Shown piece by piece: positions 21,015-54,925 of a DNA stretch of 64,000 nt. This stretch comes from Cohnella laeviribosi DSM 21336 (GTDB taxonomy: Bacteria; Bacillota; Bacilli; Paenibacillales; Paenibacillaceae). Each line of letters begins with the position of its first letter. The stretch's first letter is position 1. The stretch spans positions 1-64,000 of the forward strand of contig NZ_KB899817.1 in NCBI RefSeq assembly GCF_000378425.1, given 5' to 3'. The position numbers and the translations under genes are program-made. The notes below the pieces were generated by a model. It did no database searches, was not told the DNA's origin, and saw nothing but the letters and a program-made list of their open reading frames with translations.

Positions 21015-21195
21015 ATTGGATTTCATCCAACAAAATCGACCACTCCGTTCCATTTTCTCGTCTATATTGGATAATTCCAGCCTCGTTCACCCATTCAAGC
21101 TCAAAAGAGCTCCAATTAGACAAATATATTGGATAAATTCCAGTATAGCTGTCCATCTTCCGCGCATTTGGATTATACATTGGATAGTTTCCAAC
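21015..21195. repeat. four-hairpin array A (ATTGGA/TCCAA type)
   Basis: Four inverted repeats with ATTGGAT as left arm and TCCAA or TCCAG as right arm, separated by 3-5 bases, start at 21015, 21066, 21128 and 21179. The steps are 51, 62 and 51 bp. The first and last copies are perfect in their 5-6 bp arms. The geometry equals that of arrays B, C and D although the arm sequence differs. It lies 200 bp upstream of the intact endonuclease-wHTH promoter. The rest of 20853-21378 shows no gene. Confidence 0.75.
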
Positions 21196-21378
21196 ATAGA
21201 CACCTATGCGTCTTACAGTGCCAGCAAAGCCCGATAGGTCTGCACCAGAAGAAGAAGATCTGCGTCGCAACCTCCGGAACCGACGATTTCACGCGCCAGC
21301 AACCGAATGTGTCCAAATAAACGTAGCACGATACAACAGCATTCCCCCCGGGAAACGCAACGTGTCCCGAATTGCTCC

Positions 21379-21407
21379 TTGTCCGCATCGCGCCTGAACG
21401 GTATACT
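21379..21407 (+). promoter_or_regulatory. promoter of the endonuclease-wHTH gene
   Basis: TTGTCC (21379-21384) and TATACT (21402-21407) with a 17-base spacer. Transcription should begin near 21414, only about 10 bases before the terminator-like hairpin at 21423. Confidence 0.65.
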
Positions 21408-21422
21408 GAGGTTAAGACGAAG

Positions 21423-21463
21423 AACGTCCCGAAGCCTGCGAAGGTTTGGGGACGTTTCTTTTT
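21423..21463 (+). terminator. terminator-like leader hairpin before the endonuclease-wHTH gene
   Basis: AACGTCCC-G-AAGCC pairs with GGTTT-G-GGGACGTT (13 bp with one G-G mismatch, loop TGCGAA), followed by TCTTTTTT and then at once by the AGGAGG ribosome site. The promoter lies upstream of it, so the hairpin is inside the mRNA leader and could act as an attenuator. The paralogous gene at 53957 has the same arrangement. Confidence 0.7.
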
Positions 21464-21480
21464 TAGGAGGAATGGAAACG

Positions 21481-22152
21481 ATGGCAAACTTCGATCAGGC
21501 GCTTCAGGCATTTATGGAATGGCATGCATCCCGTCGCCAAGGGGAACGTAGAGGGCGATTGCGAAGAGGAAACCGGTATGCCGAGGAATTGTTTCTCCGA
21601 AACGTGTGGTGGCCGCTGTTCGGACACTTTGACCACTTGCACCCGGAATACGAAGTATACGATTGGAACCGCAAGTCCCAATTTCTCGACTTTGCCTTCC
21701 TTCCTCCTTTCGGCCGATTCGGCATCGAATGCGACGGCTTCCAGGCGCACGTTAAAGATATGGATCGCGAAAAATTCAGCTACAGCCTGAACCGCGACAA
21801 CTTTTTGACGGGGCTTGGATGGAAAATGCTCCATTTCTCCTTTGACGATGTGCAAACCCGCCCCGAAGTTTGCCGCACGCTTCTGCAGCTTGCAATCGGA
21901 CAAAATATGCTTCGTTTCTCTAACGGAGAATCGGCTGCTTCTTATATGGAAAAGGAAATCCTTCATTTCGCCTGGAGGCTCGGGCGCCCGGTGCGTCCCA
22001 AAGACGTGTCCGAACAATTCGAGCTGGACTTTCGGACCGCCCGTAAGCATTTGCGCGCTATGTGCGCTAAAGGCATGCTCCGCCCCGCATCCAAAGGGAA
22101 TACGGTCCGCTACTACGAGTTGGATGAAATGTCGCTCGAGCGTCTGCTATAA
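21481..22152 (+). CDS. Vsr/DUF559-like endonuclease domain with C-terminal winged helix
   Basis: A 223-residue protein. Residues about 15-140 look like the very-short-patch-repair/DUF559 branch of the PD-(D/E)XK fold: a conserved Glu in RYAEEL, Asp in FLDFAF and the ExDG motif in FGIECDGFQAH. Residues 160-223 look like a winged helix (RPVRPKDVSEQFELDFRTARKHL). The gene at 53957 is a paralogue sharing SRRQGE, WWP-FGHF-HLHPEYEV and the catalytic motifs. AGGAGG lies 10 bases before the ATG at 21481; an ATG 9 bases earlier is too close to it. No methylase or other restriction gene is nearby. Function unknown; array A lies just upstream. Confidence 0.72.
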   Translation: MANFDQALQAFMEWHASRRQGERRGRLRRGNRYAEELFLRNVWWPLFGHFDHLHPEYEVYDWNRKSQFLDFAFLPPFGRFGIECDGFQAHVKDMDREKFSYSLNRDNFLTGLGWKMLHFSFDDVQTRPEVCRTLLQLAIGQNMLRFSNGESAASYMEKEILHFAWRLGRPVRPKDVSEQFELDFRTARKHLRAMCAKGMLRPASKGNTVRYYELDEMSLERLL

Positions 22153-22353
22153 ACCGTCCGCAAGCCGGACACCGCGAACGGTTGGAAAAAGAGCTAAGCC
22201 GCCAAGTCAAACAACTGCCCGCTGCCATCGGCTAGCCCTGTCGGACCGCCGTTGCGGGGCCATAGCCGCCAAGCTCTTGCGGACGCAAACAAAACCGCTC
22301 GCCATCCTTGTCCGGAGCGCACCCGTTTTAGCGGAGATGATTCAGAAAAAGAA

Positions 22354-22398
22354 CAAAAAAGCCCCCGGAACACCGCAACAAAGGCGGCGCCCGGAGAC
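22354..22398 (-). terminator. terminator of pyk
   Basis: On the minus strand a long stem with several G-U pairs (GTCTCCGGGCGCCGC with GCGGTGTTCCGGGGGC, loop of 7) is followed by TTTTTTG. It lies 40 bases after the pyruvate kinase stop. The rest of 22153-22437 shows no gene. Confidence 0.8.
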
Positions 22399-22437
22399 CG
22401 TATTCTTTTCGCCGTATATGATTAAGGGCCTAAAACA

Positions 22438-23853
22438 TTAAACCTGCTGAACCTTAATCAGGTTGGTCGTACCGGATTGGCCGAACGGCACGCCGGCGGA
22501 GATGACGATCGTGTCGCCCGACTGCACAAGACCCGTCTTCAGCGCGCCGCGTACAGCGGAATCGAACAATTCGTCGGTTGTCGTCACGGGTTCCCCTTTG
22601 ACCGGGATCACGCCCGACAGCAGGCTCATCTTCGACAGCACTTCCTCATGCTGCGAAATCGCGATGATCGGCGCCTTCGGCCGATACTTGGATACCATGC
22701 GCGCGGTAAAGCCGCTTTCCGTTGCGGTGACAATGGCTGCGGCATTCAGCTCAAGGGAAGCGCTGACCGCGCTCTGGCTGACGATCTCCGTCGTGTTGGT
22801 CGCGTGGTGGGCGATTTTCTTGAGGAACTGTTCCTTGTAATCGATCATGCCCTCCGCTTTTTTGGCGATCGTCGCCATCGTCCGGACGGATTGGACGGGA
22901 TACTTCCCGGCGGCCGACTCGCCGGACAGCATGACCACGTCCGCTCCCTGCAGCACCGCGTTGGATACGTCGCTAACCTCGGCTCTTGTCGGCCGCGGGT
23001 TGACCTGCATCGACTCCAGCATGTGCGTGGCGACGATAACCGGCTTGCCGGCGAGGTTGCACTTCTCGATCATTTCCCTTTGAATAAGCGGCACTTCTTC
23101 AATCGGCACTTCTACGCCCAGGTCGCCGCGGGCAACCATGATGCCGTCGGACGCCTCGATAATCGCGTCGAGATTCGCCACGCCCTCTTCGTTCTCGATT
23201 TTGGAAATAATCTGAACGTGTCCGGCGCCGTTCTCTTCCAAAATGCGGCGGATTTCCAAAATATCCTCGGCCTTGCGGACGAAGGATGCGGCGATCATCT
23301 CGACGCCATGCTGAAGCCCGAAATAAATATGCTGCACGTCCCGCTCCGTCACCCCGGGAAGCGACGTCTTGATGCCGGGCAGGTTGACGCCTTTTCGCGG
23401 CTTCAACGTCCCGCCGTTTACGATCGTACAGCGGATTTCCGTTCCTTCCACCGCCCGCACCGTCAGTTCGACAAGCCCGTCGTCGATCAAAATCCGGTCG
23501 CCCGGCTTGACGTCTTTCGGCAGATCCGGATAGTTCACCGGCAGGCGGGACGCATCCCCCAGCACATCCTCCGTCGTCAATACCAGCTCTTCGCCGGCTT
23601 TCAGCTCGCACGACGCTTCCTTCAGCTTGCCGATCCGCACCTCCGGACCTTTGATGTCCATCATGATCGGAACAAACGTGTTCAGTTCCCGGGCGGCCTG
23701 ACGAATTTTCGCGATGCGCCCGGCATGGTCTTCCAGCTCTCCGTGAGCCATATTTAAACGGGCAACCGTCATTCCCGCCAAAATCATTTCCTTCAAAATG
23801 CCTACGTCCTCGCACGCGGGTCCCATGGTACAAATGATTTTCGTTTTGCGCAT
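22438..23853 (-). CDS. pyk: pyruvate kinase, short divergent form
   Basis: The 471-residue protein converts phosphoenolpyruvate and ADP to pyruvate and ATP. It keeps the barrel signatures MDIKGPEVRIG, the lysine motif ISKIENEEG, MVARGDLGVE and NPRPTRAEVSDV. It differs from usual Bacillales PykA in two ways. It lacks the C-terminal PEP-utiliser extension (about 110 residues), and core motifs are altered: NMAHGE for NFSHG, THMLESM for TQMLDSM and SGESAAGKYP for SGETAAGKYP. It may be a second isozyme rather than the main glycolytic enzyme. AGGAGG lies 7 bases before the ATG. Divergent from the AraC regulator gene, with a 104-base shared upstream region. Confidence 0.9.
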   Translation of the reverse strand: MRKTKIICTMGPACEDVGILKEMILAGMTVARLNMAHGELEDHAGRIAKIRQAARELNTFVPIMMDIKGPEVRIGKLKEASCELKAGEELVLTTEDVLGDASRLPVNYPDLPKDVKPGDRILIDDGLVELTVRAVEGTEIRCTIVNGGTLKPRKGVNLPGIKTSLPGVTERDVQHIYFGLQHGVEMIAASFVRKAEDILEIRRILEENGAGHVQIISKIENEEGVANLDAIIEASDGIMVARGDLGVEVPIEEVPLIQREMIEKCNLAGKPVIVATHMLESMQVNPRPTRAEVSDVSNAVLQGADVVMLSGESAAGKYPVQSVRTMATIAKKAEGMIDYKEQFLKKIAHHATNTTEIVSQSAVSASLELNAAAIVTATESGFTARMVSKYRPKAPIIAISQHEEVLSKMSLLSGVIPVKGEPVTTTDELFDSAVRGALKTGLVQSGDTIVISAGVPFGQSGTTNLIKVQQV

Positions 23854-23957
23854 GTCCAGTCCTCCTCGTCTTACGTCTATTTTACGACGAAAAAACGGAA
23901 GGAACTATGAAATATAGTATAATGAATGCAATATAGTACGATACGGGAGAGAAAAGA

Positions 23958-24740: not shown

Positions 24741-24792
24741 CGGCGGCGTTTCGGGATCATCCCCGCAGCGGGGAAACGGCACGGGCCGGGGA

Positions 24793-25467: not shown

Positions 25468-25504
25468 CCGTTTACGCCCCCTGTTCGTTCTCCTGCGCCA
25501 AAGC

Positions 25505-25565
25505 AAAAAAAAACCGCGCGATGCGCAAGAAGACGAAGCCGCTCCGGCAAGAGCGCTCCGTCTTC
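25505..25565 (-). terminator. terminator of uvrA
   Basis: On the minus strand GAAGACG...CGTCTTC forms an outer stem with further inner pairing, then GCG-CATCG-CGC forms a small second hairpin that runs into nine T residues. It lies 12 bases after the uvrA stop. Confidence 0.65.
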
Positions 25566-25577
25566 ATTCTGTTCCGC

Positions 25578-28436: not shown

Positions 28437-28504
28437 CGATTTAGCCCCTTTCGCTTTACGGGCAAGGCGGGGCTTCGCAATCGCCCACAGTTGTCCGTAC
28501 ATAA

Positions 28505-28516
28505 GAATATGTGTTC
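28505..28516 (-). promoter_or_regulatory. LexA (SOS) box-like site of uvrA
   Basis: Minus-strand GAACACATATTC fits the Bacillus LexA pattern GAAC-N4-GTTC with one change. It lies just downstream of the uvrA -10, where bound LexA would block initiation. The identical 12-mer sits at the same place before uvrB (31388-31399). Confidence 0.72.
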
Positions 28517-28522
28517 CCATTT

Positions 28523-28551
28523 ATTATAGCGAAGCCGGAATTAGGATGCAA
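28523..28551 (-). promoter_or_regulatory. promoter of uvrA
   Basis: Minus-strand TTGCAT (28551-28546) and a perfect TATAAT (28528-28523) with a 17-base spacer, followed at once by the LexA-like box. The leader to the TTG start is about 80 bases. Confidence 0.8.
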
Positions 28552-41979: not shown

Positions 41980-43293
41980 GTGCGAAAAGGTTGGATGGGG
42001 CCGGTCGCCATCGCGGCGGCTCTGGGAATCGGCGCCGGTACGGCGCTTGGCTGTGCTATGCATGACGGAGACGGGAAATGGGCGCTGAGCTTGTCCGCAG
42101 GCGGGCATCGAGAGCGATGGGGCGAGACGGCGGAGGCGCTGCCTCTAGCGGCGGCCGTCCCGGGCGGGGCGGAGACGAGGCAGACGCCCGTCGCTGCGGG
42201 TGCGGCGGACGCGCTGCTTGCAGCGGTGCGCCGGCAGGCGACCCTCGCAGCGGGCGGCGAGCGGCCGGACGCGCGGCCCCTGGCGGGGGCGGCGGAGATG
42301 CTGCCGGCCGGTCTGTCTCTGGCGGCAGCCGTACCGGACGCGGCGAAGACGATGCCAGCCGGTCTACCTCTGGCGGCGGTAGTACCAGGCGCGGCGGAGA
42401 AGCTACCGGCCGATCTGTCTTCGGCAGCGGCCGCCACCAGTGCTCCGGAGCAGAAGCATCGGGACGAAGAACGCCCGCGCAAAATCGCGGCGTTTTCCAC
42501 CTCCTTTTCGGCAAGCGACGAAGGCCGCTCACATAACATCGAGGCTGTGGCACAAGCGCTTGACAACACGCTGCTGATGCCGGGCGACGTGTTCGATTTC
42601 GGCAGCATCGTCGCCAAGGCGGAACGGGAACGCGGCTTCAAGGAAGCGCCTGTCATCGTGAGCGGCAAGCTGAAGCCCGGGATCGGCGGCGGCATTTGCC
42701 AGGTCAGCAGCACCCTTTACAACGCCGTGCTGCGCGCGGACGGCATCGACATCGTGGAGCGGCGGAACCATTCGCTCCCGGTCGGCTATTTGCCTGTCGG
42801 CCTGGACGCCACCTTCGCGGACGGCTTCATCAACTTCCGCTTTCGCAACGCCACGGGCAAACCGCTTCGGATCAAGACGGAAGTCCGGAACAAAACCGTG
42901 ACCGTCAAACTGCTCGGAGCCATGAACGAAAACGTGGAGTACCGGATCGAAACGGTGATGCAATACATCATCGCGCCCAAAATCGTTTACGTGGCGGACC
43001 CGCATCTGGCCGAAGGCCAAAGCAAGACGCTGCGTCCAGGCGCGGAAGGCTACGTCGTCGACACATACCGCGTGAAGCTGGTCAACGGGGAATTCGCGAA
43101 ACGGGTCCGTATTTCGCACGACACGTACCGCTCGCAGGATGCGCTCGTCGCCGTCCATCCGGACGATCCGCGTCTGGAGCCTTCTGCTGCCAAACAGCCG
43201 GCTCCGCATGGGCTTCCCTCTTCGGATTCCTCTGCGCCGGAATCGCACGCTCCGGTCCCTCTTCACGGCGGCGTGCCGGTCGAACCGTTGTAA
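41980..43293 (+). CDS. VanW-family exported protein
   Basis: The 437-residue protein has an N-terminal signal or anchor (residues 5-25), an Ala/Pro-rich region (35-160) and a VanW domain (about 165-340: FSTSFSASDEGRSHNIEAVAQALDNTLLMPGDVFDFG...GGGICQVSSTLYNAVL), then a Pro/Ser-rich tail. VanW domains occur in surface proteins of Gram-positives and in some vancomycin-resistance clusters; their activity is unknown. The Ala/Pro region includes about 2.5 copies of a 17-residue repeat (PAGLSLAAAVPDAAKTM type, 51-bp period), likely a flexible spacer. The start is GTG with GGGAGG 7 bases upstream. A hairpin terminator follows. Confidence 0.85.
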   Translation: MRKGWMGPVAIAAALGIGAGTALGCAMHDGDGKWALSLSAGGHRERWGETAEALPLAAAVPGGAETRQTPVAAGAADALLAAVRRQATLAAGGERPDARPLAGAAEMLPAGLSLAAAVPDAAKTMPAGLPLAAVVPGAAEKLPADLSSAAAATSAPEQKHRDEERPRKIAAFSTSFSASDEGRSHNIEAVAQALDNTLLMPGDVFDFGSIVAKAERERGFKEAPVIVSGKLKPGIGGGICQVSSTLYNAVLRADGIDIVERRNHSLPVGYLPVGLDATFADGFINFRFRNATGKPLRIKTEVRNKTVTVKLLGAMNENVEYRIETVMQYIIAPKIVYVADPHLAEGQSKTLRPGAEGYVVDTYRVKLVNGEFAKRVRISHDTYRSQDALVAVHPDDPRLEPSAAKQPAPHGLPSSDSSAPESHAPVPLHGGVPVEPL

Positions 43294-43318: not shown

Positions 43319-43458
43319 CCCGGTATCCCGTCCCTCGGGCTCGCCCTTTCCACATCCTCTGCTTTCCGGTAACAGCCTCATCCTTGCCTTTCGGGTACCG
43401 GATCGCCCTCCACTCCTTTGCCCCCTAAATTCGTTCTCCTGTACGGTGGCCCCGAAAC

Positions 43459-43664
43459 GAAACTGTAGTTGCACAAATAGCAATTGCACGACTGTTTTCC
43501 GCTTTTTCGCGTTTGCAGTTGCTATTACGGCAATTCGACGGCCCGACACCTCGTTCGGAGACCGAAATCGAAACTGTAGTTGCACAAATAGCAATTGCAC
43601 GGCTGTTTTCCGTTTTTTCGCGTTTGCAATTGCTATTACGGCAATTCGACGGCCCGACACCTCG
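43459..43664. repeat. four-hairpin array B: two near-identical 95-bp units (period 111 bp)
   Basis: Units at 43459-43553 and 43570-43664 differ at only about three positions. Each contains two inverted repeats, AGTTGC...GCAATT and R-RTTGC...GCAATT; these start at 43467, 43517, 43578 and 43628 (steps 50, 61, 50). Between the first and second motif of each unit is CCG-YTTTTTCGCG. Farther right, GGATGAA recurs at 43699, 43814 and 43865 (last step 51), perhaps a decayed array. The 43294-44040 gap otherwise shows no supported gene. Confidence 0.88.
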
Positions 43665-43954
43665 TAAGGCGACCCGCTGCTCAAGCGTGAGCCCTCGGGG
43701 ATGAACGCGGGCTGCGGAACGGAAACGGCAGGCAGCCGCAATGTTGCGTAGATAATGTTGCGAGGGCAAACGATCTGCTCGATGGATGTAGGTGGCGGTA
43801 AAGGCGCCCTGGGGGATGAAGCGGAATTTGGAGAACATGCGGAAGCCAATGCAGGCGCACTCCCGGATGAACGTCCTGCATGCAAGGAGCCAATAACGGC
43901 GATTGAGCGGCAGGCAGGCAAAAAGGTACGGCGGAGCTTCGGATTCCGGGAGGC

Positions 43955-44040: not shown

Positions 44041-45456
44041 TTATTTGCACTTTTCGGCGTACTCCGCCGTCCAGGCGTGAACGCGCGCGAGCTCGGCTTC
44101 CGCCCGTTCGATCGCGGCGGCTACCTGTTCCGTCGCCGTGCCGCCGTAAACGTTGCGCGCGTTGACGACGTTTTCCGGCTTCAGCACTTCGTAGATCCGG
44201 TCGTCGAACAGCGACGAGAATTGCTTGAATTCGTCCAGCGTCAGGTCCAGCAGGAACTTGTTGTTCTGGATGCAGTACAGCACCGTCTTGCCGATCACTT
44301 CGTGCGCCTGGCGGAACGGCATCCCTTTGCCGACCAGGAAGTCGGCGATGTCCGTCGCGTTGGAGAAGTCGCGGTCGACGGCCCGGCGCATTTGCTCCTT
44401 GCGGACCTTCATCGTCGCGATCATCGGCGCAAACAGCTGCAGAGCGCCCTGGAGCGTCTTGACCGTATCGAACATGCCTTCCTTGTCTTCCTGCATGTCC
44501 TTGTTGTACGCGAGCGGCAGCGACTTCAGCACCGTCAGCAGGCCGACGAGATGGCCGTACACCCGCCCCGTTTTGCCGCGCACAAGCTCGGGCACGTCCG
44601 GGTTCTTCTTCTGCGGCATGATGCTCGATCCGGTGCAGAACGCGTCGTCCAGCTCGATAAATTGGAACTCCGTGCTGGACCACAGCACCAGCTCTTCGCT
44701 AAGCCGCGACAAATGCGTCATAATCAGCGAGGCGTTGGCCAGAAACTCGACGATAAAATCGCGGTCGCTGACGGCGTCCAGACTGTTTTCGTACACCCGC
44801 CCGAAATTGAGCAGCTTCGCCGTGTACAGGCGGTCGATCGCAAACGTCGTGCCGGCCAGCGCGCCCGCGCCGAGCGGCAGCGTGTCGATGCGCTTGTAGC
44901 TGTCCTGCAGACGCTCGATATCGCGTCCGAACATGGAGACGTAGGCCATCAGATGATGCGCGAACAAAATCGGCTGCGCCCGCTGAAGATGCGTGTAGCC
45001 CGGCACGATCGTGTCCAGGTTGGCTTTGGCCTGCCCGATCAGCGCCTCCTGCAGCTTCGCGAGCAGATCGACGAATTCGACGACCCTTTTGCGCAAGTAC
45101 AGGTGCATGTCCGTCGCCACCTGGTCGTTGCGGCTGCGTCCCGTATGCAGCTTGCCCCCGACCGGCCCGATCTCGTCGATGAGCGCCTTTTCGATGTTCA
45201 TGTGAATGTCTTCGTCGGCGATCGAGAACTCCTGCTCGCCCCGCTGGATGCGGTTGCGCACCTTCAGCAAGCCTTCCTTGATTTTTTCGACGTCGTCCGC
45301 AGGCAGGACGCCGCAATGGCCCAACATCGAGACATGCGCGAGGCTGCCCTGGATATCCTCTTCGGCCAGCTCTTTGTCGAACGTAATCGACGCCGTGTAT
45401 TCCTCCACCAGTTGGTCGGTTTTTTTCGTAAACCGGCCTCCCCAAAGCTTGCTCAT
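44041..45456 (-). CDS. argH: argininosuccinate lyase
   Basis: The 471-residue enzyme splits argininosuccinate into arginine and fumarate, the last step of arginine synthesis. Signatures include [15 protein letters not shown], the catalytic-region [13 protein letters not shown]-like segment and the flexible [20 protein letters not shown] loop with the catalytic serine. The ATG at 45456 has AAGGGAG about 11 bases upstream. A 326-base gap with two terminators separates it from argG, so it may depend on its own promoter (TATAAT at 45632-45627 on the minus strand, -35 unclear). Confidence 0.96.
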
Positions 45457-45665
45457 ATCCTTCGTGACTCCCTTCGTATCTTCAGCCGGCGATCGGCCCG
45501 GTCCCGTTCCGCGCCGCTGCGAAAGCGCACCGCTCCGATCCCGAAGGCAAAACCGCCAAAAAACGCCGGCTGCAAGCTGAAACTGCCGGAACGCATGGCG
45601 TCCATGTTCCGTGCAAGCACTTTCCCATTATACATGATACAAGCCAACCGGGCCCGTTGCACAAG

Positions 45666-45689
45666 AAAAAGAACTGCGGTGCGCAGTTC
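45666..45689 (-). terminator. terminator 2 downstream of argG
   Basis: A perfect 8-bp hairpin, GAACTGCG-CAC-CGCAGTTC, followed by TTTTTC on the minus strand. It is the second of two tandem terminators in the argG-argH gap. Confidence 0.85.
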
Positions 45690-45705
45690 ATCGGTACAGA
45701 TCGGG

Positions 45706-45755
45706 AAAAAGGGCCCGGGAGCGCCGCCGGCGTCCAAAGACCGTGCGCCGCTCCC
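45706..45755 (-). terminator. terminator 1 downstream of argG
   Basis: Minus-strand GGGAGCG pairs with CGCTCCC, with further inner G-C pairs, followed by GGGCCC and TTTTT. It lies 28 bases after the argG stop. Confidence 0.7.
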
Positions 45756-45782
45756 TTTCCGATGCGTTCGTGCCCCTCCCGT

Positions 45783-47030
45783 TTACCCGTTGTTCAGGCC
45801 GGAAGCGCCGTTTACGCCGGCCGAAACTTTCAGGCGCAGCGCGTTCAGGCGGATGAAGCCGGTCGCGTCGCTTTGATCGTAAGCCTGCGTCGGGTCCGCC
45901 TCCATCGTCGCGATGTGCGGGTTGTACAGGCTGACCGGACTTTTCAGCCCCGCCGCCATCACGTTGCCTTTATACAGCTTCAGGCGAACGGTGCCGGTCA
46001 CGTTCTTCTGGCTTTCGGTGACGAGCGCTTGAATGGCGAGGCGCTCCGGCGCGAACCAGAAGCCGTTGTATACGAGCGAAGCGTACTTCGGAATGAGCGA
46101 GTCGCGCAGGTGCATGACGTCGCGGTCCATCGTCAGCGACTCCATTTTGCGGTGCGCCGTGAACAGGATGGTGCCGCCCGGCGTCTCGTATACGCCGCGG
46201 CTCTTCATGCCGACAAAACGGTTCTCGACCATGTCGACGCGGCCGATGCCGTGCTTGCCGCCGAGCTCGTTCAGCTTTTCCATCACGCCCAGCGGGCTCA
46301 GCTTCTCGCCGTTCACCGCCACGCAGTTGCCGGCTTCGAACTCAAGCTCCACGTATTCGGGCTGATCCGGCGCCTGCTCCGGCGATACGCTCAGCACGTA
46401 CATGTCCTGCGCCTCCGGCGCGCTCGAATCGTACCACGGGTCCTCCAGCACGCCGCTCTCGAAGCTGATGTGCAGCAAATTGCGGTCCATCGAATACGGC
46501 TTGGCCGCCGACGCCTGAACCGGGATGCCGTGCTTCTCGGCGTAGGCGATCATTTCGGCGCGGCCCGGGAACGCTTTGCGGAACGCCTCGTCGCGCCAGG
46601 GCGCGATCACCTTGATGTCCGGCGCCAGCGCCGCGGCCGTCAGCTCAAAGCGCACCTGGTCGTTGCCTTTGCCGGTGGCGCCGTGCGCGATCGCCGTCGC
46701 GCCTTCGGCGCGGGCGATTTCGACCATGCGTTTGGCGATCAGCGGACGCGCGATGCTCGTGCCGAGCAGGTACTGCCCTTCGTACAGCGCTCCCGCCTGG
46801 AACATCGGGAAAATAAAATCTTTGGCGAACTCTTCCCGGAGGTCGTCGATGTAAACTTTGGACGCGCCGGTTTTGATCGCTTTTTCCTCGAGTCCGTCGA
46901 GTTCTTCCTTCTGGCCGATGTCGGCGGTGAAGGTGATGATTTCGGCATCGTACGTCTCTTTCAGCCAGGTCAGGATGACGGACGTATCGAGCCCGCCGGA
47001 ATATGCCAACACGATTTTTTCTTTGGCCAT
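45783..47030 (-). CDS. argG: argininosuccinate synthase
   Basis: The 415-residue enzyme joins citrulline and aspartate with ATP. The N-terminal PP-loop [12 protein letters not shown], the citrulline/aspartate-binding region [13 protein letters not shown] and the later [24 protein letters not shown] are intact. The ATG at 47030 has AAGGAG 10 bases upstream; an earlier TTG (MPIM...) is too close to that site. It follows argF after 101 bases and is followed by tandem terminators before argH. Confidence 0.97.
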
Positions 47031-47131
47031 GATGGGCAACGCTCCTTCTTTTTTTCTGAACATCATTCCGCACAATGGAAGCCGCCGGACTCGGCCGTAT
47101 CGCCCGAACCCGACGGCGTCCGCGTTTCAGG

Positions 47132-48091
47132 TTACATGATGGCGGCCATGATCGCTTTTTGCGCGTGCAGCCGGTTTTCCGCCTCGTCGAAAATGACGGA
47201 ATGCGGACCGTCGATCACGCCCTCGGTCACTTCTTCTCCGCGGTGAGCCGGCAAACAGTGCATGAACAGGAAATCCGGCTTGGCGTATTGAACGAGCTGC
47301 TCGTTGACCTGGTAATTTTGGAAGGCGCGCTCCCGTTCCTTCTGCTCTTCTTCAAAGCCCATGCTTGCCCATACGTCGGTATAGACGACGTCCGCGCCTT
47401 CGATCGCTTCGCGGGGGTCGCGCAAAATGTCGATCCGGCTGCCGCTTTCCCTTGCGAAGTCGCGCGCCAGCTTGACCTGCTCCGCGTCCGGCTCGTAGCC
47501 TTCCGGGGACGCGCTCGCAAAGTGAATCCCGAGCTTGCTCGCGCCGATCATCAGCGAATGCAGCATGTTGTTGCCGTCGCCGATGTAGGCGACCTTCAAG
47601 CCTTCGAGACGTCCTTTTTTCTCCAAAATCGTCTGATAGTCCGCCAGCGCCTGACACGGATGGGATTGATCCGACAGCGCGTTGATGACCGGCACGGTCG
47701 CGCTGCGGGCCAGCTCCACGACATTGCGGTGGCCGAACGTCCGAATGATGATGCCGTCTAGGTAGCGGGACAGCGTCATCGCCGTATCGCGGATCGTCTC
47801 GCCGCGTCCCATCTGGATATCGTTGCGGCTCAGAAACAGCGCTTGGCCGCCCAATTGGTACATGCCGACCTCGAACGAAACGCGGGTGCGGGTCGACGAT
47901 TTTTCAAAAATCATGCCGAGCGACTTGCCTTTGAGCGGCTGATACACTTCCCCGGCTTTGAGCTTGCGCTTCAATTCGATGGCCAGATCGATCAAGTAGC
48001 GAATCTCTTCGGACGAGTAATCGACAAGCCCCAGAAAATCCCGGCCCTTCAGTCTTGCGGCCAATTCTTCCGCTTTTGCGGCTGGTTGCAC
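47132..48091 (-). CDS. argF: ornithine carbamoyltransferase
   Basis: The 319-residue enzyme makes citrulline from ornithine and carbamoyl phosphate. The carbamoyl-phosphate loop SSTRTR, the HPCQALAD motif and the ornithine-side FMHCLPAHRG are present. The start is GTG at 48091, with AAGGAGG 7 bases upstream. Carbamoyl phosphate synthase genes (carAB), which sit in this operon in B. subtilis, are absent here. Confidence 0.97.
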   Translation of the reverse strand: MQPAAKAEELAARLKGRDFLGLVDYSSEEIRYLIDLAIELKRKLKAGEVYQPLKGKSLGMIFEKSSTRTRVSFEVGMYQLGGQALFLSRNDIQMGRGETIRDTAMTLSRYLDGIIIRTFGHRNVVELARSATVPVINALSDQSHPCQALADYQTILEKKGRLEGLKVAYIGDGNNMLHSLMIGASKLGIHFASASPEGYEPDAEQVKLARDFARESGSRIDILRDPREAIEGADVVYTDVWASMGFEEEQKERERAFQNYQVNEQLVQYAKPDFLFMHCLPAHRGEEVTEGVIDGPHSVIFDEAENRLHAQKAIMAAIM

Positions 48092-48212
48092 GACAACCCC
48101 TCCTTCACGATCGTAAAATTCCGTCCCGGAAAGCCTCTCCCGGGCTTTATCTTAACATCTGTCGGGTTCCGTGCTTTCGGATTCCGACGTTATTCCGACG
48201 TTACTCCGACGG

Positions 48213-49397
48213 TTATTCCGCCGGCGTTCGAACCGCCGCCCGCTCCTTCAGCACGGCAGCGATCAGGCCGACCGCTTCGTCGATCTCCTCGCCGGTGACG
48301 AGCAGATTCGGCAGCAGGCGAATGACATTCGGCCCGGCCACCACGACGAGCAGGCCGCGGCGGTACAGCTCGGCAACGGCGTCGGCGACGGGTTCGTCGC
48401 AGACGATGCCGACCAGCAGGCCTTTGCCGCGGACTTCGAGCACGCCGGGCACGCCGTCAAGCGCTTCGCGCAGCTTGCCGATCAGCCGCTCGCCCGCTTC
48501 GGCGGCACGCTCCGGGGCCTGCTCGATCAGCAGCGTCTCGATCGTCGCGGCGACCGCCGCCATCGCGATCGGCGTGCCGCCGAACGTGGAGCCGTGCGAG
48601 CCGGCGGAGAACGCCGGCACAAGCGGCGCCTTGGCCAGCATCGCGCCGACCGGAAAGCCGCTGCCCAGGCCTTTGGCCAGCGTGAAAATATCCGGTTCCA
48701 CGTCGTAATGCTGGTACGAGAACAGCTTGCCCGTGCGGCCCATGCCGGTCTGGATTTCGTCGATGATCAGCAGCAGCCCGTGGCGGTCGCAAAGCTCCCG
48801 CACGGCGCGCAGAAACGCCGGATCGACCGGAATGACGCCGCCTTCCGCCTGCACCGTCTCGAGCATGACGGCGGCGGTCCGCTCGTTAACGGCGGCCTCC
48901 AGCGCCGGCAAATCATGCAGCGGCACGTGTACGAAGCCTTGCGGCAAGGGCAGGAAGCCTTCCTTGACCTTGTCCTGTCCGGTCGCGGTCAGCGTCGCGA
49001 GCGTCCGGCCGTGGAACGATTGCGTAAAGGTAATGATCTCATGGCGCCCGTTCCCGAGCACCTTCTGATGATAGCGGCGGGCCAGCTTGATCGCCGCTTC
49101 GTTCGCCTCCGCGCCGCTGTTGCAGAAAAAGACGGCGTCGGCGCAACTGTTATCCGTCAGCAGCTTGGCCGCTTTCTCCTGACCCGGTATCTGAAACAGG
49201 TTCGACACATGCCACAGCTGGTCGAGCTGGGCCACCAGCGCCGACTTGACCCGATCCGGAACGTGTCCGAGGTTGGTGACGGCAAGGCCGCTCATAAAAT
49301 CGAGATACTCCTTGCCCTGATCGTCCCACAGGCGGCTTCCCTTGCCCTTCACGATCGTGATCGGGTAACGCCCGTATGTCGGGAACAAATGGCTCAT
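48213..49397 (-). CDS. argD: acetylornithine aminotransferase
   Basis: The 394-residue PLP enzyme converts N-acetylglutamate semialdehyde to N-acetylornithine. It has [18 protein letters not shown], the [13 protein letters not shown] segment, [13 protein letters not shown] and the PLP-binding lysine in [15 protein letters not shown]. The ATG at 49397 has AAGGGAG 8 bases upstream. The 121-base gap to argF includes short direct repeats of ATTCCGACG. Confidence 0.96.
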
Positions 49398-49423
49398 GCA
49401 GAACACTCCCTTCGCTTCTATGG

Positions 49424-50209
49424 TTATTCGCGCACGATCCGGGTGCCGATGCCGCCCTCGCGGACCGCCCTGCTCAGCACGCGGGGCTCCGCGCCGTCGA
49501 CGATCAGCACTTCCCGCACGTTGCCGTGCAGGCATTTCATGGCTGCGCGCACCTTCGGAATCATGCCGCCGTAAATCTCCCCGCTCGCGATCATCTCCTC
49601 GATGTCCGCGAACGTCGCCTGCGGCATCACCTGCTTCACGCCGTCCCGCGTCCGCATAATGCCGGGCACGTCGGTGACGACAATCATCGTCTCGACGCCC
49701 AGCTTCGACGCCACCGCGCCGGCCGCCGTATCCGCGTTGATGTTGAACCGCTGGCCTTGATCGTTGATGCCGATCGGGGCGATCACGGGCACATATCCGA
49801 GCGCGATCACGCCCTCGATCAGTTCGGCGTTCACGTCGGTCACGTCGCCGACAAAGCCGATCTCGTCCGCATTGGCAACCGGCTCGGCCCGAATCAGCAG
49901 CCCGTCCGTGCCGGACAGGCCGAGCGCCTTGGCGCCGCTTTGCTGCAGCTTGCGCACGATCTCCTTGTTGATGCGGCCGGCAAGCACCATCTCCACGACG
50001 TCCAGCGTCGCTTCGTCCGTCACTCTCAGGCCGTTTGCGAACCGGCTCTCGATGCCGAGCTTGCCCAGCGTTTCATTGATGGCCGGCCCGCCTCCGTGCA
50101 CGATAACCGGCTGCGTTCCGCTTTCCTGCAATTCCCGCAAATCCTGAAAAAAAGCGTCCGGCAGCGCCGCAAGCGTGCTGCCTCCGCACTTCATCACAAA
50201 CCGCGCCAT
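49424..50209 (-). CDS. argB: acetylglutamate kinase
   Basis: The 261-residue kinase phosphorylates N-acetylglutamate. It shows the N-terminal FVMKCGG, the substrate loop VIVHGGGPAINE, GLRVTDEATLDVVEMVLAG and the metal-site lysine in GGMIPKVRAAM. It lacks the N-terminal helix of arginine-inhibited hexameric forms, so feedback inhibition may instead fall elsewhere in the pathway. GGGAGG lies 6 bases before the ATG. Confidence 0.96.
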   Translation of the reverse strand: MARFVMKCGGSTLAALPDAFFQDLRELQESGTQPVIVHGGGPAINETLGKLGIESRFANGLRVTDEATLDVVEMVLAGRINKEIVRKLQQSGAKALGLSGTDGLLIRAEPVANADEIGFVGDVTDVNAELIEGVIALGYVPVIAPIGINDQGQRFNINADTAAGAVASKLGVETMIVVTDVPGIMRTRDGVKQVMPQATFADIEEMIASGEIYGGMIPKVRAAMKCLHGNVREVLIVDGAEPRVLSRAVREGGIGTRIVRE

Positions 50210-50322
50210 ATCCGTCCTCCCGCAAAACCGGCGAATTTTTCAGCCGCCGGCCGATTCCGCCCGGGCCAGGCGAGATGCGCCCACCGCAACCGGCTTCCGC
50301 CGCGAAGCCGTCCCGGAACGGA

Positions 50323-51549
50323 TTACGTCCGGTACGCCGCGTTGATCCGCACGTAGTCGTAGGTCAGATCGCAGCCCCAGGCGACGGCCCGGCCGCTGCC
50401 CATGTTGAGGTCGACATGAATGGCGACCGTGTCGCCCTTCAAATATTCCAACGCGGCCTCTTCGTCAAACGCAACCGGCCGCGACTGCTCCAGAACGGAA
50501 ATGTCGCCGAGCCGGATGTCGACCGTATGCACGTTGAGCGGCACGCCCGCGCGTCCGGCGGCGGCGATAATCCGCCCCCAGTTGGCGTCGGCGCCGAACA
50601 TCGCCGATTTCACAAGGCTGGAGCCGATGATCGTCTTGGCGATCGCCCGGGCCGCTTCGTCGCTCTCCGCGCCGGTGACCGTCGTCTCGATCAGCTTCGT
50701 CGCCCCTTCCCCGTCGCGGGCGATCGCCTTCGCCAGTTCCCGGCACACGTAGCGGAACCCGTCCGCAAACGCGGTCCAATCCGCATGATCGCGTGACAGC
50801 TCGCGGTTGCCCGCAAGCCCGCTCGCCATCGCGATCACCATGTCGTTCGTAGACGTATCGCCGTCCACCGTAATCATATTAAACGTGACGTCCGTCGCTT
50901 CCCGCAGCAGCTCCTGCAGCAGCGCGGCGGAAATCGCGGCATCCGTCGTGATAAAGCCGAGCATCGTCGCCATGTTCGGGTGAATCATCCCGGAGCCCTT
51001 GGCCGCTCCGGCGATCGTCACGGTCTTCCCGTCGACGTCCAGACGCACGCAAGCCGTCTTCTTCACCAGGTCCGTCGTCAAAATCGCCTGGCAGAAATCG
51101 TCCGAGCCCTGCGCGTCGCCGCGCAGCTTCGCGGGAAGCTGCGCAATGCCGGAGGACACCCGGTCCATTTTGAGCAATTCCCCGATTACGCCCGTCGACG
51201 CCACCGCGACCTGATGCTTCGGAACGCCGAGCGCCTCCGCCAGCTCCGCACGCATCGTGCGGGCGTCTTCTTCGCCCTGCTTCCCGGTGCATGCGTTGGC
51301 GTTGCCGCTGTTGACCAGCACCGCGCGCAGCACGCTCTCCTCGGCAAGGCTCTCGCGGGTCACCTGAAGCGGCGCCGCCTGAAACAGATTCGTCGTGTAC
51401 ACCGCCGCAGCCGCCGCCGGAACCTCGCACACGATCGCTCCCAAATCGTGGCGGTCCGTTTTCTTCAGCCCGCAATGAAGGCCGCCGGCCTTGAATCCTT
51501 TCGGCGCCGTAATGCCGCCTTCCGGAACAATCTCATACGTTTTCCCCAT
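50323..51549 (-). CDS. argJ: bifunctional ornithine acetyltransferase / N-acetylglutamate synthase
   Basis: The 408-residue ArgJ transfers acetyl from N-acetylornithine to glutamate and recycles the acetyl group. It is made as a precursor that cuts itself before the threonine in KGSGMIHPNMATMLGF (about residue 190); this motif is intact. GGAGG lies about 13 bases before the ATG. It follows argC after 26 bases. With ArgJ present the cell can use the cyclic arginine pathway and needs no ArgE. Confidence 0.96.
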   Translation of the reverse strand: MGKTYEIVPEGGITAPKGFKAGGLHCGLKKTDRHDLGAIVCEVPAAAAAVYTTNLFQAAPLQVTRESLAEESVLRAVLVNSGNANACTGKQGEEDARTMRAELAEALGVPKHQVAVASTGVIGELLKMDRVSSGIAQLPAKLRGDAQGSDDFCQAILTTDLVKKTACVRLDVDGKTVTIAGAAKGSGMIHPNMATMLGFITTDAAISAALLQELLREATDVTFNMITVDGDTSTNDMVIAMASGLAGNRELSRDHADWTAFADGFRYVCRELAKAIARDGEGATKLIETTVTGAESDEAARAIAKTIIGSSLVKSAMFGADANWGRIIAAAGRAGVPLNVHTVDIRLGDISVLEQSRPVAFDEEAALEYLKGDTVAIHVDLNMGSGRAVAWGCDLTYDYVRINAAYRT

Positions 51550-51575
51550 GTCGCTTCTTGCGCCTCCGAATACCG

Positions 51576-52634
51576 TTACGGATATACCGGGGTGAATTCA
51601 AGCCCCAGCGTTTCGTCCCAGCCCATGATGAGATTCAAGTTTTGGATCGCTTGCCCGGCCGCTCCCTTGACCAGGTTGTCGATGACCGAAATGATCGTAA
51701 TCCGGCCCGTCCGCTCGTCCACCGAAACGCCGATATCGCAGTAGTTCGAGCCGTACACTTCCTTGGTCGCCGGATAAATGCCGGTCTCCCGCACCCGCAC
51801 GAATTTCCGCCCCTCGTAGAACTCGCGGTACAGCCGCGTAAAATCCGCGCTCGTCCGGCTTCGATCCGTCAGCTTCGCGTACATCGTGCTCATAATTCCC
51901 CGCGTCATCGGCGCAAGATGGGTCGTGAACGTCACCGCTACCGGCCGCCCGGCCGCGCGCTCCAGCACCATCTCGATTTCGGGCGTATGCTGATGCTGGT
52001 TGACCTTGTACGCCTTTAAATTTTCGTTCACTTCTGAAAAATGCGAGCCCAGGCTGAGGCCGCGCCCCGCTCCGGAAACGCCCGTCTTCGCGTCGATCAC
52101 GATCGTATCCGGATCGATCCAGCCCGCCTGCACCGCCGGGTAAAGGCCGAGCGCCGTCGCCGTCGGAAAGCAGCCCGGGTTGGAAATGAAATCCGCTCCC
52201 GCCGCTTCCTGCCCGAACAGCTCGCACATGCCGTACACCGCGCGGTCCAGATAAGCTTGATCGGGCGCTTCCTTTTTATACCACTGCCGGTAAACCTCCG
52301 GGTTCTTCAGCCGGAAATCGCCGGACAGGTCGATGACCTTCAAGCCCGCCTCGAGAAACTGGGGCGCGAGCTTCGCGCTGACGCCGTGCGGCGTGGCGAG
52401 AAATACGACATCCGCCTTGCCGCGGATGAGCGCGGGATCGACCGCGTCGAGCTTGTCGGTCACGATTTCCGTCAAATGCGGAAAACCTTCCGCAAACGAA
52501 GTCCCGGCGCTGGACGACGAAACGACCGAGGACACGGACACCTTCGGATGCGCAGCCAGAAGACGGATCAGCTCGACGCCGCCGTAGCCCGTCGAACCGA
52601 CGATGGCGGCGCGGACCGCTACAGATTGTGACAT
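51576..52634 (-). CDS. argC: N-acetyl-gamma-glutamyl-phosphate reductase
   Basis: The 352-residue NADPH enzyme begins with a Rossmann motif (AAIVGSTGYGGVELIRLLAAHP) and has the catalytic cysteine in FISNPGCFPTATALGL, then the VSGAGRG segment. The ATG at 52634 has AAAGGGAG 9 bases upstream; a longer start upstream at 52841 would run through the promoter. It is the first gene of argCJBDFGH. No clear ArgR/AhrC box was recognised, though the promoter region is AT-rich. Confidence 0.96.
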   Translation of the reverse strand: MSQSVAVRAAIVGSTGYGGVELIRLLAAHPKVSVSSVVSSSSAGTSFAEGFPHLTEIVTDKLDAVDPALIRGKADVVFLATPHGVSAKLAPQFLEAGLKVIDLSGDFRLKNPEVYRQWYKKEAPDQAYLDRAVYGMCELFGQEAAGADFISNPGCFPTATALGLYPAVQAGWIDPDTIVIDAKTGVSGAGRGLSLGSHFSEVNENLKAYKVNQHQHTPEIEMVLERAAGRPVAVTFTTHLAPMTRGIMSTMYAKLTDRSRTSADFTRLYREFYEGRKFVRVRETGIYPATKEVYGSNYCDIGVSVDERTGRITIISVIDNLVKGAAGQAIQNLNLIMGWDETLGLEFTPVYP

Positions 52635-52656
52635 GGCGAAAATCTCCCTTTTTCCT

Positions 52657-52684
52657 TGTATAAAGTAAAAATCATGCACGTCAT
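52657..52684 (-). promoter_or_regulatory. promoter of the arginine operon
   Basis: Minus-strand ATGACG (52684-52679) and TATACA (52662-52657) with a 16-base spacer, about 23 bases before the argC start codon. Confidence 0.55.
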
Positions 52685-52794
52685 GCTCGGAAAAGCGGAT
52701 TCGAAACGCCGGTGCGGAAATGCCGAAGCCGAATCCCGAAGGCCGGTTCCTGCGCGCCGACTCCCAAGTGCCGATTTCGAAGCGACGTTTTCCA

Positions 52795-52846
52795 AATGGC
52801 GTTTTTTCATCTTCGCAATGGCGTTTTCTCGTTTTTCGCAATGGCG
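52795..52846. repeat. three degenerate ~23-bp direct repeats
   Basis: AATGGCG recurs at 52795, 52817 and 52840, followed by T-rich and TTCGC sequence in the first two units. It is part of a 1.3-kb gene-free stretch between argC and the second endonuclease gene, made almost entirely of short degenerate repeats. Confidence 0.5.
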
Positions 52847-52897
52847 TGTTCTCAAGTGCCGCAATACCGCTTCCTTAATGCGCCGCCCCGACTGAGG

Positions 52898-53079
52898 AGT
52901 TGCCTAAAAAGCACTTATTTTGCCCTTAGTCTTCACAAGAGGGGATCTAGTTGCCTTTATCGCAATTAAAAAGCCGGATGACGCCGATTTCGAATCGAAA
53001 GCGAACGTTAGTTGCCAAAAAAGCACTTAAACAGAAGCCTCTAACGGAGAAAGCCGTTCCAATTGCAAAAATGTCACTT
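52898..53079. repeat. four-hairpin array C (AGTTGCC/GCAMTTA type)
   Basis: Motifs start at 52898, 52949, 53010 and 53061 (steps 51, 61, 51): three copies of AGTTGCC-N6-GCAMTTA and one looser AATTGC...TCACTT. Arms are 5-6 bp. ACGGAGAAA between the last two motifs recurs in array D. No open reading frame runs through with a ribosome site. Confidence 0.82.
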
Positions 53080-53348
53080 CAATCCGACAATTGCGACGAA
53101 ACGCGGTCAGTCCGTACCGAATCCGGGGCGCCTGAAAGCTGCGCTAACGGTTCAGCATGCCGAAAGCCGGCATTTGACGGCAGGAGCGTCGAAAGCTAAC
53201 CTTAGGGCCGGCACAGTGCCAGCTTTACTCGCAACCGATACCCGAAGGCGACACCGGCATGTGCGCTCGGAAACGCAAAGCTCCAGCACCTTTGCACCCG
53301 TCTTTTGCGGACCCGTTCGTCCAACTCAAAAACCATCCCCATTGTACC

Positions 53349-53412
53349 TAATTCAGGAAGGGATGTAAAAGCAAAACCGCTCTTTCCGTGCCTGCTTTTC
53401 ATTCCTGAATTA
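53349..53412. repeat. large two-tier inverted repeat
   Basis: TAATTCAGGA (53349-53358) pairs with TCCTGAATTA (53403-53412). Inside, AAAAGCA pairs with TGCTTTT around an 18-base loop. The outer arms are AT-rich in a GC-rich region. It could be a mobile-element end, a small RNA or a terminator; nothing else identifies it. Confidence 0.5.
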
Positions 53413-53436
53413 TTATACATAGAAATGAGTTTTTAT

Positions 53437-53684
53437 TCAATGGTTTCCGCCGAATAATTGCGCGGGCTCAGCCAAATAATCGGCATTCGTTAAGCCCTCC
53501 TTCGCCGCTCCTATTTTCGCGTAAAAAGCTTCGTATGCGGGGGATTTCTCCGAAGCCATTTCCTGCTTCCATTTGCTGCATTAAATATTTCCTATGCTCA
53601 TTTTTTCTGTCCTCAAGCTTTTTCCTGTACAAGCTTTCCTAGACCGGTGGCGAATAAACCGAAATAGGTGAAAATGGAAATCAT
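53437..53684 (-). pseudogene. possible decayed small membrane-protein gene
   Basis: Read on the minus strand with two frame changes, this gives a protein-like sequence: a hydrophobic segment (MISIFTYFGLFATGLGKLV), a charged stretch (KKLEDRKNEHRKYLMQQME) and a tail (EKSPAYEAFYAKIGAAKEGL ... LFGGNH, stop). No single frame is open throughout, and no good ribosome site precedes it. The AT content differs from nearby genes. This is a suggestion only. Confidence 0.25.
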
Positions 53685-53726
53685 GAATGAATTTGCCGCC
53701 AAACCGCAACTTGTCACAGAACCGCG

Positions 53727-53865
53727 ACTTGAAGCGCGAACTGCATTTGATCCGTTATTGAGGCGTAAGCTGAAAATGGCGGTATGACTGCAATTGAGGT
53801 GCGAACCGCGATTGAGACCCGCAGATGAGGCGCGCACGAAAAATGAAAACGCGATTGCAGCTTGA
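53727..53865. repeat. five degenerate TTGARGYGYRARCYG repeats
   Basis: Units near 53728, 53756, 53791, 53809 and 53850 share YTTGARG followed by a GCGAACTG-like end. Spacing is irregular (18-41 bp). They lie directly upstream of the leader hairpin of the second endonuclease gene. Confidence 0.4.
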
Positions 53866-53889
53866 AGCTGAACTGCCGACGCAAAGCAT

Positions 53890-53936
53890 GCGCCGTTCTT
53901 CCGGATAAGCCGGTTGGGCGGCGCTTTTTATTTTTT
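53890..53936 (+). terminator. terminator-like leader hairpin before the second endonuclease gene
   Basis: GCGCCG (53890-53895) pairs with CGGCGC (53919-53924), and CCGG-ATAAG-CCGG pairs inside, followed by TTTTTATTTTTT. Five bases later comes AAGGAGG. The order hairpin, T run, ribosome site, start codon is the same as at 21423-21481. Confidence 0.65.
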
Positions 53937-53956
53937 CCCTAAGGAGGATGCAGGAC

Positions 53957-54632
53957 ATGACGACAGGGTTCGAATTCAAACATGCCGAGTGGCTGGAACG
54001 GCACTTGTCCCGGCGGCAAGGCGAGGCGCTGCGCAGACTGAAAGTCGGCCACGCCCATGCGGAACAGGCGATGCTCAAGCATATTTGGTGGCCGGCGTTC
54101 GGGCATTTTCGGCATTTGCATCCCGAATACGAGGTAACCGATTTTCTGGAGGGACGCCGCTACTTGGATTTCGCGTATATTCGCTCCGGCATCCGCATCG
54201 CGATCGAAGTGGACGGCTACGGCCCTCACTATCGCAGCTTGTCGCGAAAAGAATTTTGCGATCAATGGGTTCGCCAGATGCATCTGATCAATGACAACTG
54301 GATCGTGGTCCGGATCGGTTATGACGACGTGATCGAGCGTCCGCGCATGTGGCAGCAGTTGCTTCAGCAGATGATCGGAACGTTGTTCGGCAACGATGAC
54401 TCGCAGTCTTCCTCGCTCACGGTCCGGGAACGGGAGCGTAAAGCTGTCGCTTCGCATGGACAGGCCGATCAAGCTATCGGACGTAAAGACGCTTCTTCAT
54501 TGCCAGTATCGCAGCGCCCGATCGCATCTGCAGCGCTTGCAGGAGAAGGGCTGGCTCATTCCCGACGGCACGGGGAAAACGCGCACGCACTTCTGGCGGC
54601 CGAATCCGGAGCGAAAATTCAATTGGCTGTAG
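53957..54632 (+). pseudogene. endonuclease-wHTH paralogue with a +1 frameshift
   Basis: From the ATG at 53957 (AAGGAGG 9 bases upstream) the frame encodes the Vsr/DUF559-like domain: SRRQGE, HAEQAML, IWWPAFGHFRHLHPEYEV, YLDFAY and IAIEVDGYGPHY. Near 54428-54442 homology to the paralogue at 21481 jumps to another frame, which gives the winged helix (MDRPIKLSDVKTLLHCQYRSARSHL) and stops at 54632. The length of 676 bases equals 225 codons plus one extra base; removing one base would give 224 residues against 223 in the intact paralogue. The nuclease motifs are upstream of the shift and intact. It could be a recent mutation, a sequencing error or, less likely, programmed frameshifting. Confidence 0.72.
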
Positions 54633-54744
54633 AAACGAACAACGGAATCGGAATCCCGCGGTTGCAAAAAAAGCAGGCAGGCTTGTTCCTTGCTCCTTCC
54701 GGCAGCATGCTCGCTCATTGCGATCCCGGCGGTACGTTTCGGCT

Positions 54745-54925
54745 AGTTGCCTCAAAAGCAATTATTTTGTTGTCCTACCGTTTTTTCGTACATGCAGTTG
54801 CATTTACAGCAATTAAAAGGCCAAACCACGGAGAAATTTGCACGCACAACGGTTTTAATTGCTTTTACAGCACTTCCTCGCGGCTGCTCACAGAAGATGA
54901 CGTTGCAATTGCCAAAAAAGCAATT
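54745..54925. repeat. four-hairpin array D (RRTTGC/GCAMTT type)
   Basis: Motifs start at 54745, 54796, 54857 and 54907 (steps 51, 61, 50): AGTTGCCTCAAAAGCAATTA, AGTTGCATTTACAGCAATTA, AATTGCTTTTACAGCACTT and AATTGCCAAAAAAGCAATT. CCGTTTTTTCG precedes the second motif, as in array B. It begins 113 bases after the second endonuclease gene, in a 427-base gap with no gene of its own. Confidence 0.85.

Follow-up and report, generated by a model that had tools for sequence, protein, structure and literature searches.

The first 64,000 nucleotides of contig NZ_KB899817.1 of Cohnella laeviribosi DSM 21336 (hereafter the window) contain four intergenic elements, A to D, each with four short palindromes at steps of about 51, 61 and 51 bp, which belong to a family dispersed through the genome. 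These arrays exhibit a fixed step, loose spacers and a five-fold phase of A+T within the unit, and they avoid called genes, lying in convergent and tandem gaps; from one species of the genus to another the sequence of the sites turns over while the pitch stays. With about even confidence, we propose that the arrays are dispersed, non-coding architectural elements acting at the level of DNA, whose sites keep one helical register so that a protein could wrap the DNA or line up along one face, as at a DNA-packaging or supercoil-handling site.

The palindrome starts that an earlier note had given for A, B, C and D proved correct when the sequence was re-read. The features are as follows, with coordinates referring to the whole window and no strand assigned to any of them:

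Element A, 21015..21194: four palindromes in which a TTGG arm faces CCAA or CCAG, steps 51/62/51 by arm starts
Palindrome A1, 21015..21030: ATTGG-ATTTCAT-CCAA
Palindrome A2, 21066..21080: ATTGG-ATAATT-CCAG, with a 6-base centre
Palindrome A3, 21128..21143: ATTGG-ATAAATT-CCAG
Palindrome A4, 21179..21194: ATTGG-ATAGTTT-CCAA
Element B, 43452..43665: a 111-bp unit present 1.9 times, palindromes at 43467, 43517, 43578 and 43628, steps 50/61/50
Palindrome B1, 43467..43485: AGTTGCACAAATAGCAATT
Palindrome B2, 43517..43535: AGTTGCTATTACGGCAATT
Palindrome B3, 43578..43596: AGTTGCACAAATAGCAATT, the same letters as B1
Palindrome B4, 43628..43646: AATTGCTATTACGGCAATT
Element C, 52898..53079: palindromes at 52898, 52949, 53010 and 53061, steps 51/61/51
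Element D, 54745..54925: palindromes at 54745, 54796, 54857 and 54907, steps 51/61/50

The arms ascribed to B, C and D (RRTTGC/GCAMTT) hold in general, the exception being the last palindrome of C, where the right arm reads TCACTT; in A, the second palindrome has the shorter, 6-base centre. That simple duplication does not explain the geometry is true of C and D, which are without internal identity of the kind seen in B, but not of B itself, a 111-bp tandem duplication with halves 94% identical, so that for B alone duplication accounts for the geometry.

It is the spacing, rather than the palindrome itself, that is the non-chance feature. A lone palindrome is not rare in the window (70 matches with at most two mismatches, against 59.2 expected), and the commoner arm type is the dyad TNNARTTGC-N7-GCAAYTNNA (118 palindromes, 116 distinct windows). 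Genome-wide, a pair pattern with an open gap of 20–50 (steps 34–64) gave 62 + 65 matches against 3 + 4 in a backward control, and among the matches listed all but three had steps of 50–52 or 60–61; exact matches at 60–61 bp numbered 20 + 18 against 1 + 1 backward, representing 29 distinct steps at 26 loci. In the window together with 28 further stretches of the genome, chosen for holding a motif pair, pairs 25–80 bp apart with at most two mismatches fell at 50–52 bp (57 pairs) or 60–61 bp (28 pairs), with nine at other distances (36, 55, 57, 68, 71, 73), while the reversed sequence yielded one pair. When the best next site was sought freely from 25 to 80 bp in 13 four-palindrome elements, all 39 steps were 50–51 or 60–61 bp without ties (51, 20 times; 61, 11; 50, six; 60, two), and six type I elements gave 18 of 18 at 51 or 61 bp, at loci that had been picked for containing such sites. 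Both outcomes that might have undone the earlier note, random sequence giving such spacing equally often and elements limited to four places, can thus be set aside, as the controls do not reproduce the spacing and the family is dispersed. A strict search for any arm, requiring 6-bp perfect arms, showed no clear distance peak in the window; adding up 12 samples brought out a weak one at 51, where odd centres gave 11 pairs and the mean per distance was 3.3. The arms are too imperfect for such a match.

The usual unit is four palindromes at 51/61/51 bp. Exactly four were found at 19 of the 31 TTGC-type loci in the window and the 28 stretches, the remainder having two (six loci), six (two), five (two) or three (one), or being split by an assembly gap (one), although the site rules may miss degenerate sites in these counts. 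Across 13 elements the spacers were 0.45/0.37/0.55 identical between loci (0.25–0.27 when shuffled) and the arms 0.83–0.90, in a comparison restricted to spacers of equal length with sites placed within 1 bp of 51/61/51, so that its spacer lengths are partly by construction; placement was repeated with the free search described above. Some copies (D, L031, L036, L045 and L057) are discrete units, the outer palindromes marking both limits of homology. In D, the homology with other loci covers 0 to 185, counted from where the element starts, whereas A, C and L038 had no repeat segment at all in this test. A larger mobile unit around the arrays was rejected, since homology stops at the array. Given that B is duplicated and that type I loci are tandem 112-bp units, duplication has a part in the family, though not in C or D. 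A right arm reading GTCACTT or GACACTT recurs at L036, L052 and L057, in the last palindrome of C and in the third of L038, and is a recurrent asymmetry inside the four-site unit. Several type I arrays also have near them a further short repeat that is itself dispersed; it reads about GGGGTTAYCCCTGCATCGYCG and then a run of T, and lies about 456, 205 and 114 bases before the arrays of L032, L037 and L050.

As the earlier note had claimed, the geometry is kept while the arms change between A and B–D in this genome, and the same holds between species. Arrays of the relative G007 are built on AATGCCG-N7-CGGCATT, with 62 pairs per strand (none in the control and none in G000), and their listed steps are 52 apart from one 51 and one 53; G035 carries TTGAGT-N7-ACTCAT at 52/52; G020 has, by eye, four unlike copies at 52/51/51 downstream of argH; and the arrays of G041 and G049 belong to other families, again at a pitch of 51–52. 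Several arrays of G006 step at 51, and one repeats every 112 bp, with distances of 51 and 61 between its sites. The 51/61/51 search that had been proposed thus finds its pattern in this genome and in that one G006 array, but is too narrow for the other arrays read, which are plain 51–52. We sampled 100 kb from each of 12 Cohnella genomes at positions picked irrespective of arrays (182 kb called non-coding), although arrays had already been seen elsewhere in some of these genomes. The samples contained 28 non-coding tandem arrays whose unit was at least 20; 18 of them had a 51–52-bp unit or a multiple of it (102–104, 152–154, 207), in seven of the 12 genomes, and several of the 10 non-fitting arrays resemble missed coding repeats. 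The same method applied to named loci, taken from the best rows of an ArgH scan and hence not a random sample of bacteria, gave one fitting array of five at ten Paenibacillaceae loci, one of six at nine other Bacillales loci, and none of 11 at 61 further loci from Listeria and Staphylococcus to proteobacteria (18/28 versus 0/11, p 0.0002; versus 2/22 for all named loci, p 0.0001). Many of the arrays in relatives are near-identical tandem copies of variable number. Conservation at the same site was rejected in the loci read: for argH and ppx, each found in 36 of 37 genomes, an array lies downstream of argH in five of the 30 read (G000, G035, G007, G024 and, by eye, G020) and downstream of ppx in two of 30; further argH loci show a unit near 101 (G015) or weak 50-bp repeats (G008, G010). 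Elsewhere in the Bacillales, two of seven arrays with 41–43-bp units show an A+T phase. These two, of 41 and 42 bp, come from Bacillus methanolicus and Pontibacillus (L221:13834-13943 and L224:15671-15779), have an A+T component near 10.2–10.5 bp and are possibly a four-turn version; the other five lack the component. G006 also contains a 67-bp tandem array (L110:4025-4188) that resembles, by eye, clustered regularly interspaced short palindromic repeats (CRISPR).

The steps lie near whole numbers of helical turns, as had been suggested, with 51 and 61 separated by about one turn, and base composition follows the same register. In 26 units from 14 genomes, the strongest mean component of A+T was at one fifth of the unit (relative power 2.36–2.38, against 0.49–1.63 for the other eleven harmonics), a mean reached by none of 1000 shuffles, and the 15 simple units gave 2.51 versus 1.01. 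This test took one 51–52-bp unit per array (G005a and G006d left out, G007 added), with arrays from one genome not being independent; earlier tests on 27 arrays took composite units, which inflate power. Element A, whose arms are unrelated to those of B–D, nonetheless shows a strong phase, with a power of 15.2 at 10.2 bp and at most 2.7 at nine other periods tested. Single 51-bp windows on 117 palindromes of the C. laeviribosi genome had a mean relative power of 2.27 at 10.2, and the long-element spectrum of 23 elements from this genome has its maximum at 10.15 bp, to which the fixed-step comb contributes, and is low at 10.7.

With genes called by a simple codon-based gene finder, all 32 elements of the C. 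laeviribosi genome lie outside genes, in 14 convergent, 15 tandem, two divergent and one unresolved gap, versus (by subtraction) 12, 72 and 19 for the gaps without elements in these stretches; convergent gaps are in excess (p 0.0001), and the shortage of divergent ones has p 0.16. The 22 array gaps in relatives comprise six convergent, 16 tandem and no divergent, against 126, 563 and 155 other gaps; here convergent gaps are not significantly over-represented (p 0.13), but the shortage of divergent ones is significant (p 0.02). Taken together, 2 of 53 array gaps are divergent versus 174 of 947 others (p 0.005). A common function of the flanking genes was rejected, the 10 proteins scanned having varied functions and one belonging to no family.

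In the window, B occupies a convergent gap with a VanW-like gene on one side and argH on the other, and C lies upstream of a gene that by eye resembles argC. Among named ArgH proteins, that of Cohnella sp. AR92 stands closest to the window's, at 93% identity. B and C bracket a gene run (44041-52679) whose ends are argH and that argC-like gene. CTATCG/TTATCG repeats at 25- and 50-bp steps run straight into A (20930-21015), and a 23-bp tandem repeat of about three copies lies just ahead of C (52788-52865). B1 is preceded by GT and thus reads GTAG at the palindrome edge. Within the VanW/G5 coding sequence there is a 51-bp tandem repeat (42289-42420), equal to the intergenic pitch, perhaps by chance.

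If the arrays are architectural, each element would usually present four dyad-symmetric sites in one register, 5, 6 and 5 turns apart if a turn takes about 10.2 bp, and its A+T-rich stretches would recur in phase with the helix; a protein (a nucleoid protein or one with gyrase-like wrapping) may align on the array, wrap it or bridge DNA there; selection would then act on register more than on letters. Free B-DNA has 10.5 bp per turn, and a pitch of about 10.2 bp, being below this, would fit a left-handed wrap holding negative supercoils, while a site beyond gene ends would fit an element that buffers or insulates neighbouring transcription units topologically. By analogy, gyrase is the candidate protein with the best documentation, though the core motif and pitch do not clearly fit. 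A broader proposal, which we advance tentatively and with some doubt, is that of a chromosomal element class defined by helical geometry and not by sequence: about 10.2 bp per turn, five (sometimes six) turns per unit, a nucleosome-like left-handed wrap beyond gene ends, and a species-specific recognition sequence with a fast-evolving partner. Bacterial intergenic repeats are usually classed by sequence. In these arrays it is the spacing and the phase along the helix that persist and the letters that change, and this gives a direct way into the function of such repeats, since inserting half a turn should break the arrays. If DNA is wrapped on them, they would be the bacterial equivalent of positioned nucleosomes or of topological insulators.

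Several observations count against an architectural role. Single spacers of the C. laeviribosi genome peak nearer 9 than 10.2 bp, so that the phase in this genome rests partly on the palindromes. Static curvature, from a wedge model with angles entered by hand, is not raised in its elements (mean z −0.09, n = 24, A included); A alone has z −3.4, and 22 other arrays average −1.93 with five of them carrying the figure. Static curvature was thus rejected as a general property of the arrays under this model, and the phase looks less like a fixed bend than like bendability or grooves that face a protein. No such array appeared in the 100 kb of five of the 12 sampled genomes, and of 28 array units tested singly only 10 gave a significant palindrome, so that the pitch may be general but the dyad site is not. 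The gyrase cleavage core is not clearly enriched (28 versus 21.0, standard deviation 4.4), and the arms are so uniform within the genome that copying could explain part of the pattern. Finally, when covariation between left and right arms was followed up, offsets 10, 11, 16 and 17 were coupled (z 4.1–4.8), as a hairpin would give, probably through type I copies; offsets 1, 2, 18 and 19 are anti-coupled.

That coupling would suit transcribed hairpin arrays working as RNA, in 3' end protection, attenuation or as a small RNA, as would the centres of about 7 bases, the position 3' of genes, and good stems in G007, G049 and Fredinandcohnia. We nevertheless consider such arrays very improbable, and the earlier note's folded-RNA alternative was not supported. 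An RNA stem would favour G-U pairs, yet on the coding strand 52 palindromes in tandem gaps have 22 G-T versus 31 A-C mismatches (p 0.27), and the six-base arms are fully Watson–Crick in only 35 of 118 cases. The changes do not show a stem preserved by compensation or by G-U pairs, coupling being confined to some outer offsets, and at offset 8 purine is kept against pyrimidine with sides near-independent (66 Watson–Crick pairs versus 56.3 expected, n = 116; z 1.9), a pattern that looks more like protein half-sites than a stem. In addition, whole-turn spacing is a property of DNA, a scan of 31 of the 32 elements showed that at 19 of 43 array-facing gene ends a terminator-like site precedes the array, and Rfam at its gathering score gave no match over the elements, the only one in the window being a 16S fragment at 1-74.

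The remaining explanations operate on DNA. The arrays might be strong gyrase-wrapping sites, a working analogue of the E. coli bacterial interspersed mosaic element BIME-2, whose palindromes and phased G/C draw gyrase beyond gene ends and between convergent genes. The gyrase motif of E. coli extends over 130 bp, along which G/C content is phased, and gyrase cleavage sites are enriched in BIME-2 elements (PMC6379681); the gyrases tested from E. coli, B. anthracis and M. tuberculosis prefer GC periodically at 10–11 bp (PMC12324340); our arrays, too, have phased A+T and lie mostly in convergent and tandem gaps. We regard this as unlikely in view of the core counts and the 10.15-bp peak with little at the model's 10.7 (a figure on which the fixed-step comb weighs), and loose specificity leaves the uniform arms within a genome unexplained. 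Selfish palindromic repeats like repetitive extragenic palindromic (REP) sequences or BIMEs, spread by an unseen transposase or gene conversion with spacing inherited from an ancestral element, would account for dispersal, for discrete units bounded by outer palindromes, for arms uniform within a genome and different between species, and for a gap preference like that described for REPs (PMC3733652). Inheritance alone, however, would not hold 42-bp spacers of 37% identity free of indels, nor does it explain several unrelated families with the same pitch, and no motif pair accompanies the one Y1 transposase gene; this makes a selfish origin distinctly unlikely. Neutral minisatellites arising by replication slippage, with the mechanism setting unit length (e.g. 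slippage over a five-turn DNA–protein loop), agree with the many near-identical tandem arrays of variable copy number in relatives. This we find slightly harder still to credit, because the non-tandem C, D, L036, L043, L057 and G020 arrays keep the pitch with unlike spacers, and because slippage leaves the 51/61 alternation and the five-fold A+T phase within units to be explained.

Among known systems, CRISPR likewise alternates a palindromic repeat with a spacer, but diverse spacers within an array were absent from the tandem arrays read here, in which spacers are near-identical, and our loci are dispersed by the dozen. No description of such repeats in this lineage was among the literature matches listed, most subscription journals lying outside the search. 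BIMEs have alternating spacers. Like REPs and BIMEs, which are short dispersed intergenic palindromes mainly in unidirectional and convergent gaps (PMC3733652, PMC6379681), our elements are dispersed intergenic palindromes with few in divergent gaps; they differ in a strict whole-turn pitch and in sequence that turns over with the pitch kept. An end tag GTAG or CGTC is a further mark of REPs and BIMEs, and GTAG happens to arise at the edge of B1 from the GT ahead of it. A link to a cognate Y1 transposase (RAYT) was rejected, as the genome has a single PF01797 gene and the 3.4-kb locus around it (L059) contains no motif pair at 48–53 or 58–64 bp. With strong gyrase sites the arrays share phased A+T/G+C content at helical pitch over >100 bp and a location beyond transcription units (PMC6379681, PMC12324340); the gyrase model uses a 10.7-bp pitch (PMC6379681), whereas ours is nearer 10.2 and the arms are strongly conserved within the genome.

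The nearest described kind of repeat is the STAR element of staphylococci, given as of unknown function (PMC3532100). The STAR signature T(G/A/T)TGTTG(G/T)GGCCC(C/A) occurs nowhere in 231,222 bp of C. laeviribosi stretches, nor in any locus fetched. The layout is similar: STAR elements are intergenic motif–spacer arrays with tandem units of about 50 nucleotides, spacers similar within a locus and distinct between loci, and loci that vary by species (PMC3532100), and our arrays have a motif of about 19–25 bp and spacers of 31–42 bp between 19-mers. In STAR elements, however, one 14-bp GC-rich motif is common across staphylococci and spacers at the gapR locus are 40–44 bp (PMC3532100), which implies a period of 54–58 bp, not whole turns, whereas here the motif varies by species and the pitch is 50–52 and 60–61 bp in C. 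laeviribosi and 51–52 bp in its relatives.

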